A program made the position numbers and the translations under genes. Positions 5,803-54,058 of a stretch of DNA of 64,000 bases are shown here, one piece after another. The stretch comes from an uncultured Bacteroidales bacterium (GTDB lineage: Bacteria > Bacteroidota > Bacteroidia > Bacteroidales > UBA4417): the NCBI GenBank assembly GCA_903879715.1, contig CAIRMR010000034.1, positions 1 through 64,000 on the forward strand, written 5' to 3'. The notes beneath the pieces are model-generated. The model did no database searches, was not told the origin of the DNA, and saw only the letters and a list, made by a program, of their open reading frames with translations. Within the stretch, counting starts at the first letter, position 1. Each line of letters opens with the position of its first letter.

Positions 5803-5817
5803 TGATATACTTAAAGC

Positions 5818-5990
5818 CTAATCAGTGCAATTAAAGTATAAACAAACTGATATATGCCACAGATTACGCAGATTACGCAGAATATTGATGTGTTATGATC
5901 AGATTTAGTTCAAGAGACTGCTGAAAGCAGTTGAAATCTGCGAAATCTGCGAAATCTGTGGCTAAAATGCCTATTGAGCAAAATGATTAG
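5818..5990. repeat. Palindromic element with CTAATCAGT-like ends
   Basis: Begins with CTAATCAGT (5818-5826) and ends with TGATTAG (5984-5990). Inside are long inverted arms: GCCACAGATTACGCAG followed by GATTACGCAG on the left (5857-5880), and AATCTGCGAAATCTG repeated up to ATCTGTGGC on the right (5935-5962). A short palindrome CTGCTGAAAGCAG sits in the centre. It has no coding capacity. It lies between two convergent genes and directly after a truncated asparaginase gene. Confidence 0.75.
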
Positions 5991-5992
5991 TT

Positions 5993-6199
5993 TCAATGCT
6001 TTGTAAAATTCAGAAGGCTGTTAGAACTATACCTAAGTTTGGCTTCGAACTGTTTTGCTTTTTCAGCTGGCAGGTTAGTCGGAGTAATATTGCCAGCACC
6101 CCCGTGGACTACAAGGGTATAACTTCCTGGTGACTGTGAATTAGCAATGAAATACAGTAATATGAAAACTGCAGTAAAAAGGAGATATTTAGCTTTCAT
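5993..6199 (-). pseudogene. Truncated isoaspartyl peptidase / plant-type L-asparaginase (N-terminal remnant)
   Basis: A 68-residue frame with a signal peptide (MKAKYLLFTAVFILLYFIANSQ), then YTLVVHGGAGNITP and EKAKQFEAKL. The VVHGGAG motif marks the start of Ntn-hydrolase asparaginases, which are normally about 300 residues or more. Similarity ends after FEAKL. The last dozen residues are unrelated, and the autocatalytic Thr region is absent, so the protein cannot be active. It follows the amino acid permease by 33 bp on the same strand and once probably formed an operon with it. The break is next to the repeat element at 5818-5990. Confidence 0.8.
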
Positions 6200-42723: not shown

Positions 42724-43000
42724 CTTATCAGTCGATTTGGTCACTGATATACTCATACATTATGCTCTTTTCAAAGGTATTCACTTCGGCAGGCTCAGTG
42801 CATCGCGTGATAACGCTCCGCTGAATCCACAGATTACGCAGATTTAAAGCTGCTGAAAGCAGTTTTATTAATCTAATTTGTGCAAGGTTAATTTATAGTT
42901 GTCTGAGAAACTTAGCGAATAACAAAGCGATCTCACCGAAGGTAATCTGTATATTCTTTGGCATATATTTGCTAGTCAAGGACTTGGATTAGCTGATTAG
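42724..43000. repeat. Palindromic element with CTTATCAGT/CTGATTAG ends
   Basis: Starts with CTTATCAGT (42724-42732) and ends with CTGATTAG (42993-43000). It contains CCACAGATTACGCAGATT (42831-42848), the inner palindrome CTGCTGAAAGCAG also seen in the 5818 copy, and a right arm AATCTGTATATTCTTTGGCATAT. A CACTTCGGCAGGCTCAGTG segment is inserted near 42783-42801. It fills most of the 923-bp gap 42399-43321, where I see no convincing gene. Confidence 0.65.
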
Positions 43001-53843: not shown

Positions 53844-53872
53844 AAGTTTTTTATCTAAGTGATTTTTTGTAA

Positions 53873-54040
53873 CTAATCAGTCTGATCAATATGCATATTT
53901 GCCACAGATTACACGGATTACACAGATTTCAAAGAGCGTTCATCTGTTTTTTTAATTTAATTTGATTAAAAATGATGAATAATTGTCTGTGTGATCTGTG
54001 GCATATACCCGTTTTTCTGTATTTTATCTAAACTGATTAG
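53873..54040. repeat. Best copy of the CTAATCAGT-ended palindromic element
   Basis: 168 bp bounded by CTAATCAGT (53873-53881) and ACTGATTAG (54032-54040), perfect 9-bp terminal inverted repeats. Inside are GCCACAGATTACACGG plus ATTACACAGATT on the left (53901-53928), and TGTCTGTGTGATCTGTGGCATA on the right (53984-54005). The left outer sequence aligns with the reversed right end of the copy at 5818. It has no coding capacity. Confidence 0.8.
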
Positions 54041-54058
54041 CTACGTTTTTCTTATTAA

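Follow-up and report, generated by a model that had tools for sequence, protein, structure and literature searches.

The element at positions 53869–54044 (+ strand) of the window, the 64,000 nucleotide stretch of DNA that was analysed as a whole, is in all likelihood an IS66-family MITE (ISBst12 group) that is moved by the transposase of an insertion sequence with the same ends. The full-length element is 176 bp. There is good support both for how it works and for the kind of ends it has. The element accounts for one frequent repeat of its own genome and of the congeneric genome G003, as well as for a share of assembly breaks, and it represents an IS66-type MITE that is tied to a defined transposase clade. 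Searches of the open-licence literature brought up no IS66-derived MITE. Searches of that literature with the arm and end sequences gave nothing on this element among the matches listed, and a search on GxxExxY also gave nothing on it.

The general tips of the element are GTAACTAATCAGT…ACTGATTAGTTAC. In the window copy, the left terminal inverted repeat, GTAACTAATCAGT, lies at 53869–53881 (+) and the right one, ACTGATTAGCTAC, which has one change relative to ACTGATTAGTTAC, at 54032–54044 (−). Between them are two iteron arms, the left of the type GCCACAGATTACACGGATTACACAGATTTC at 53901–53930 (+) and the right (GTCTGTGTGATCTGTGGC), its complement, at 53985–54002 (−). The first-pass annotation had described a 168 bp element at 53873–54040 with perfect 9 bp inverted ends and inner CCACAGATTAC arms. 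These ends and arms are present where they were placed, but the element in fact extends 4 bp beyond them on each side: comparison of flanks reveals four extra inverted bases common to the copies, GTAA on the left and TTAC on the right, the window copy having CTAC in place of TTAC as its right outer bases.

Three further stretches of the window (5818–5990, 42724–43000 and about 1972–2197) had been proposed as related copies, and by reading all three are real relatives. The first is an older copy at 5814–5994 (−), whose 173 bp core has its tips at 5818–5990 and whose outer GTAA/TTAC bases are altered. The second, at 42724–43000 (+), is diverged and has additional inner pieces (CTTATCAGT … CTGATTAG). 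The third is a decayed copy at 1969–2201 (−), which keeps an exact GTAACTAATCAG end at 2190–2201 on the minus strand and has an approximate other end, placed by eye. A duplication was not recognised in by-eye reading of these three copies. The ends alone are insufficient as evidence, since chance accounts for the frequency of CTAATCAG by itself in the window, where 53 matches with at most one mismatch are found and 47.8 are expected, the observed number being equalled by 26 of 100 shuffles. The arm sequence CCACAGATTAC is enriched there, with 25 matches (at most two mismatches) against 13.3 expected, and none of 100 shuffles equals this.

Evidence of insertion comes from the target duplications. 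Complete copies of up to 600 bp were gathered from the loci under study with looser tips and with the duplication optional. The 34 complete copies of the own genome are 172–450 bp in length, and at least 20 of them differ from 184 bp by no more than 2 bp. An 8 bp direct repeat abuts the tips in perfect form in 18 of these 34 copies and with at most one mismatch in 23. When right flanks were dealt to other own copies (200 shuffles, at most one mismatch allowed), the mean was 1.16 and the largest value 5. Perfect repeats of 7 bp and of 9 bp were each found once in the 34 copies. Of the 62 copies listed from other genomes, 31 have a perfect repeat and 44 a repeat with no more than one mismatch, against a mean of 1.64 and a maximum of 5 in the shuffles, although this set retains at least five false pairings of a tip with inner sequence, as judged by reading (L118, L149, L185, L192 and the 89 bp L161), and also the 61 bp L332, which has no duplication. 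The duplication of the window copy itself is imperfect; its left copy, GATTTTTT at 53861–53868, and its right copy, GTTTTTCT at 54045–54052, both without strand, are identical at 6/8 positions. The shortest convincing copy, L222 of genome G011, is 60 bp in length and consists of tips alone, with no arms, yet has a perfect duplication. Judged from this single arm-less copy, the inner arms are therefore probably dispensable for mobility.

Empty sites are found in congeners. In a comparison of the window region with 16 genomes of the genus, its own included, the flanks of the element were contiguous in G003 and G008, with a single copy of the target; in the remaining members the alignments stop short of the junction. 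For eleven further sites of the own genome, the two flanks were joined and looked for in six congeners. In G003, seven were aligned across the junction without the element and none was occupied; of the other four, one flank only was aligned at L003 and L054, and L013 and L016 had no specific match. All six congeners have an alignment that spans the junction of site L049. Six of the seven G003 sites were checked at the level of single bases, with the number of errors limited in advance; this check confirmed L007, L010, L021 and L049 (4/6) and failed at L005 and L053; for L049 in the other congeners it confirmed G011 and G012 and did not confirm G009, G008 and G002. The copies at sites empty in G003 are thus younger than the split from that genome. 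The search for empty sites and target duplications that had been recommended on first reading was productive on both counts, with an empty window site in two congeners and 8 bp duplications in most own copies.

The element is abundant in its own genome (G000; 6.07 Mb, 223 contigs). The 12-mer GTAACTAATCAG occurs 65 times and its reversed control is absent; the combined end and arm pattern CTAATCAGTN{8,38}GCCACAGATT occurs 50 times, with none for the control. A search of the whole genome with the 168 bp sequence gave at least 73 matches, many of them aligned over all 168 bases, a lower bound in that 40 of 121 first-look candidates were scored. The union of the 168 bp matches, the end and arm pattern and the 12-mer amounts to at least 62 separate places, a set that excludes the strongly diverged window copy at 42724, and a contig end lies within 300 bp of at least 24 of the 62. 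The first-pass annotation would have abandoned its reading if the copies shared no ends beyond the arms or if the genome held no further copies; the ends are common and the copies numerous. The best pairs of copies are 99.5% identical, hence part of the spread was recent. Thus common ends at unrelated sites, 8 bp duplications, empty sites and near-identical copies bear out the earlier proposal of a non-autonomous mobile element as opposed to a terminator, and the insertion sequences with identical ends in other genomes, described below, add to this.

Copy number is patchy. In a search of 60 relatives, G000 had 65 tip matches and G003 had 79, and the other 14 members of the genus had 0 to 11. 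A GTDB scan listed at least 80 matches, and the distribution is to be read as a lower bound. Candidate matches were also seen at L144 (Methylococcaceae) and L157 (Chlorobiota), and a match in Marinobacter alexandrii (L132) was set aside as chance by reading. Plasmid and phage collections queried with a 184 bp copy gave no match.

Some copies depart from the usual form. A 450 bp copy (L063:1131–1580, G000:C222) has approximately 270 bp of additional inner sequence, and L063 and L124 (JAURYB010000139.1) show the 450 bp copy at the same site, with the flank AAAGACAG, in two congeners. At L113:563 (G000:C175), L210 (G002) and L235 (G003), the GTAACTAATCAGT tip is followed by the repeat GTGCCTAAAGT where the CCACAGATT arm is expected; these copies possibly constitute a second MITE type that shares the tips. 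A group II intron sequence (RF00029) at L107:57–138 (G000:C27) directly follows the CCACAGAT arm of a MITE copy. The same junction of MITE arm and group II intron is seen by reading at the end of L115 (G000:C211), where there was no Rfam match.

GTAA tips and 8 bp duplications are typical of IS66. Both are seen in classical IS66 elements that belong to the same order (L257, L265, L269 and L274) and that are without the longer tip. The longer tip is found in an IS66 subgroup with a single transposase open reading frame (L292, L319, L308 and L321), and at L292, L319 and L308 it is identical to that of the element over 12–13 bp. L292 is 1554 bp in length with the tips GTAACTAATCAGCCC and GTGACTAATCAGCCC and L319 is 1572 bp with GTAACTAATCAGTGTG at both ends, each having an 8/8 duplication; L308 has one exact end, its other end, GTAACGGATCAG, being at a contig start. 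Tip variants with 8/8 duplications are present at L315, L316, L317, L320, L322 and L324, and variants without a duplication at L318 and L325. The three single-frame proteins that were scanned score above the NCBIfam IS66 cut-off and have PF03050 matches. Transposases of L319, L308, L322 and L307, elements with AATCAG at one tip or at both, are 53–68% identical among themselves, as compared with 28–39% identity to those of the other-tipped L317, L320 and L315. Within the genus, contig C210 of G012 carries at its end the last 41 codons of a transposase of this subgroup, a stop codon and then an exact GTAACTAATCAG tip. GTAA tips are given for IS66 in an excerpt of one published account (PMC12888890), and an excerpt of another describes ISDge4, of the ISBst12 group, with the tips GTGACTACTCAGCA and GTAACTGCTCAGCA and an 8 bp repeat (PMC12898284).

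These similarities indicate, at the level of sequence, that the element very probably borrows an IS66-type (ISBst12 group) transposase for its movement, and a transposase of the same-tip type would be the mover. The element itself has no gene. A complete insertion sequence bearing identical ends would supply a DDE transposase, which would recognize GTAACTAATCAGT at both tips and mobilize the element, and insertion at a staggered cut would give rise to the 8 bp duplication.

A transposase with the same termini had been named on first reading as something to look for. The own assembly yielded no intact partner, and related genomes yielded the single-frame IS66 elements with the same 12–13 bp ends. 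The own genome, an incomplete assembly, has no intact IS66 transposase with these tips and one PF03050 match, which covers 49 positions and is of another subtype. The partner presumably was lost from this genome or is absent from its assembly. G003, with its 79 tip matches, has four PF03050 matches, none with such tips, and 9 of the 16 genome handles searched have a PF03050 match. Long autonomous copies were sought up to 8 kb in a set of loci, single ends also being read individually; tip pairs that had a duplication (two mismatches allowed in each tip, one in the duplication) reached no more than 299 bp. When the tips were relaxed and the duplication was optional, with a limit of 600 bp, own copies reached 450 bp at most. 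Beyond the 13 bp tip, the right end of the MITE has a weak similarity to the congeneric insertion sequence (37 of 1000 shuffles are as good), which is suggestive only. L224 of G003, a 757 amino acid frame with an extra N-terminal region, and a related remnant on C72 were considered as partners and rejected, the sequence being distant and the tips unmatched. In L224 (G003:C14), L301 (G315:C18) and L303 (G275:C252), an IS66-like transposase domain ends frames of 757–914 amino acids, whose N-terminal part is by reading RecB-type nuclease-like.

The inner arms are distinct from the IS66 tips. An association of repeats of this type with GxxExxY genes was tested. The CCACAGATTAC arms of the MITE match iteron arms that flank small GxxExxY genes. 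The GxxExxY family (TIGR04256) was found in all 16 genome handles searched, equivalent to 14 genomes since two of them are duplicates (G312 is G011, and G314 is G008); in 14 control genomes, three had weak matches and none a match above the cut-off. The three GxxExxY proteins scanned belong to PF13366, of the PD-(D/E)XK superfamily. From 70 rows, 59 loci (among L326–L389) were kept after removal of five duplicates, four short weak fragments and one contig-end row, two rows of one broken gene being merged into one. For each locus, the 250 bp on either side of the gene were then searched for their best inverted match to each other, and its score was compared with those of 30 shuffles. It exceeded all 30 shuffles in 44/59 GxxExxY genes, with a score of at least 18 in 30/59, and the test was negative in 15/59. 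For coding sequences of the window it exceeded the shuffles in 2/45 and reached 18 in 0/45, with a maximum of 13.5. GxxExxY arms are tandem iterons of many kinds, for example CCACAGATTACACAGATT, CCACAAAATCACGAAAACAC and CCACGGAGGCACGGAGG. Arms of the MITE type are found at a GxxExxY gene with a common downstream gene in four members of the genus, including the own genome (L357, L363, L375 and L353; L357 is the own-genome locus), and the upstream neighbour is also common to three of the four. Genes of PF05635 (S23/four-helix bundle) behave similarly in a sample of 30 loci from a longer list (L396–L425), 27/30 exceeding the shuffles and 15/30 reaching 18. Inverted iteron arrays on both sides of PF05635 genes have shorter units, such as GGTTGAT and AAGTTCA.

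At one locus the arms and gene are found between IS66-type tips. L340:1433–1949 (G308:C57), 517 bp in length, has GTAACTACTCAGT as its first tip and GTAACTATTCAG as its second; inside them, two opposed arms enclose a GxxExxY gene. The whole is flanked by perfect 8 bp repeats, and GxxExxY is the sole gene between the tips. Such tips with a duplication were found at one of the 59 GxxExxY loci (L340) and at none of the 30 PF05635 loci. It is conceivable, though rather doubtful, that in these Bacteroidota the GxxExxY (PF13366) and PF05635 genes, each with arms whose iteron sequence varies between genes, are undescribed selfish or self-regulating modules with a RAYT/REP-like plan, and that the MITE is an IS66-type element in which a GxxExxY module was once present, as it still is in L340, and from which the gene but not the arms has been lost. 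Against this reading stand the 15/59 GxxExxY genes that were negative in the test. That every gene has an arm type matched to it is an impression gained from the listed loci, and the combination of IS66 tips and GxxExxY is known from L340 as a single locus. The gene may have been lost from a larger element or gained by the MITE. Through its arms, a frequent repeat is connected with two families of small genes, and as a lead the link to GxxExxY is of greater interest than the MITE.

This raises the question of whether a GxxExxY (PD-(D/E)XK) protein that recognizes the arms moves the element, the tips being incidental. The arm type shared with the own-genome gene at L357 and the occurrence of the gene in every genome handle searched would fit such a role. 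However, the duplications adjoin the tips and not the arms, arm-less L222 has a perfect duplication, and insertion sequences with identical tips have a transposase of their own. Mobilization by the GxxExxY protein is thus improbable.

The arms form a hairpin, CCACAGATT, which folds stably (z −7.9; 0/200 shuffles as good). In 45 diverse copies GCCACAG and CTGTGGC are almost invariant, and a double-sided change is seen in 1/7 predicted pairs, with a covariation term of 0.05. This near absence of covariation means that the arms behave as a conserved DNA sequence and not as an RNA structure. The strong hairpin could also suggest a REP/REPIN-like palindrome that is spread by a Y1 (HUH, RAYT) transposase acting on CCACAGATT, and a Y1-like open reading frame, as judged by reading, adjoins one broken copy at L106. 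Target duplications are not expected in Y1 transposition, and most own copies have 8 bp duplications at defined tips; in addition, the Y1-like gene has different palindromes of its own, GTCCCTGACGGGAC, and L222 lacks the hairpin and has a perfect duplication. Spread by a Y1 enzyme is therefore very improbable, and the Y1-like gene on C8 was rejected as a partner. The locus in question, L106:1443–1931 (G000:C8), has a 162 amino acid Y1-like frame (IS200/RAYT-like by reading) amid GTCCCTGACGGGAC palindromes, beside the broken MITE copy. The long stable fold might point to a terminator of transcription or to a structured RNA that is conserved where genes end, but this is scarcely credible in view of the insertion shown by duplications and empty sites, the low covariation and an Rfam scan of the element with no family at gathering score (microRNA matches being sub-threshold). 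The MITE may have a secondary effect on neighbouring genes.

REPIN/RAYT systems have short palindromic repeats with relatives on either side of a gene at another place in the genome. The MITE is similar in that its short palindromic repeats resemble the flanks of such a gene, but it differs from these systems, whose palindromes are without tips or target duplications, in having IS66-type tips and 8 bp duplications, and the gene with similar flanks is of the PD-(D/E)XK family and not Y1. The tIS66 elements with passenger genes, such as ISPa75, also have GTAA tips, and L340 resembles them in having a gene, GxxExxY, between IS66 tips; as far as an excerpt of the source goes, tIS66 elements retain transposase genes, whereas L340 has the passenger only (PMC12888890). 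Bacterial MITEs have been described from other families. According to excerpts of the respective sources, MITECca01 derives from a resident IS982-family element (PMC9769881) and MITEPsy1, of family IS5?, has a 4 nt duplication (PMC3189936). The present element is like them short, gene-less and present in several copies with insertion sequence-like tips. It differs in family and, as far as these excerpts show, in that their parent is in the same genome; here none was found in the own, incomplete assembly, a difference that concerns the partner and not the type of ends. The closest likeness is to the ISBst12 group of IS66, represented by ISDge4, for which an excerpt gives tips starting GTAACT.nTCAG and an 8 bp target duplication (PMC12898284); relative to that group, the element is without a transposase gene, is 176–184 bp in length and has inner iteron arms. 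It is short and lacks a transposase gene, has inverted repeats with target duplications and empty sites in relatives, and displays GTAA tips with the longer motif of the group and an 8 bp duplication. The element is thereby confirmed as a MITE with IS66-family, ISBst12-group ends.
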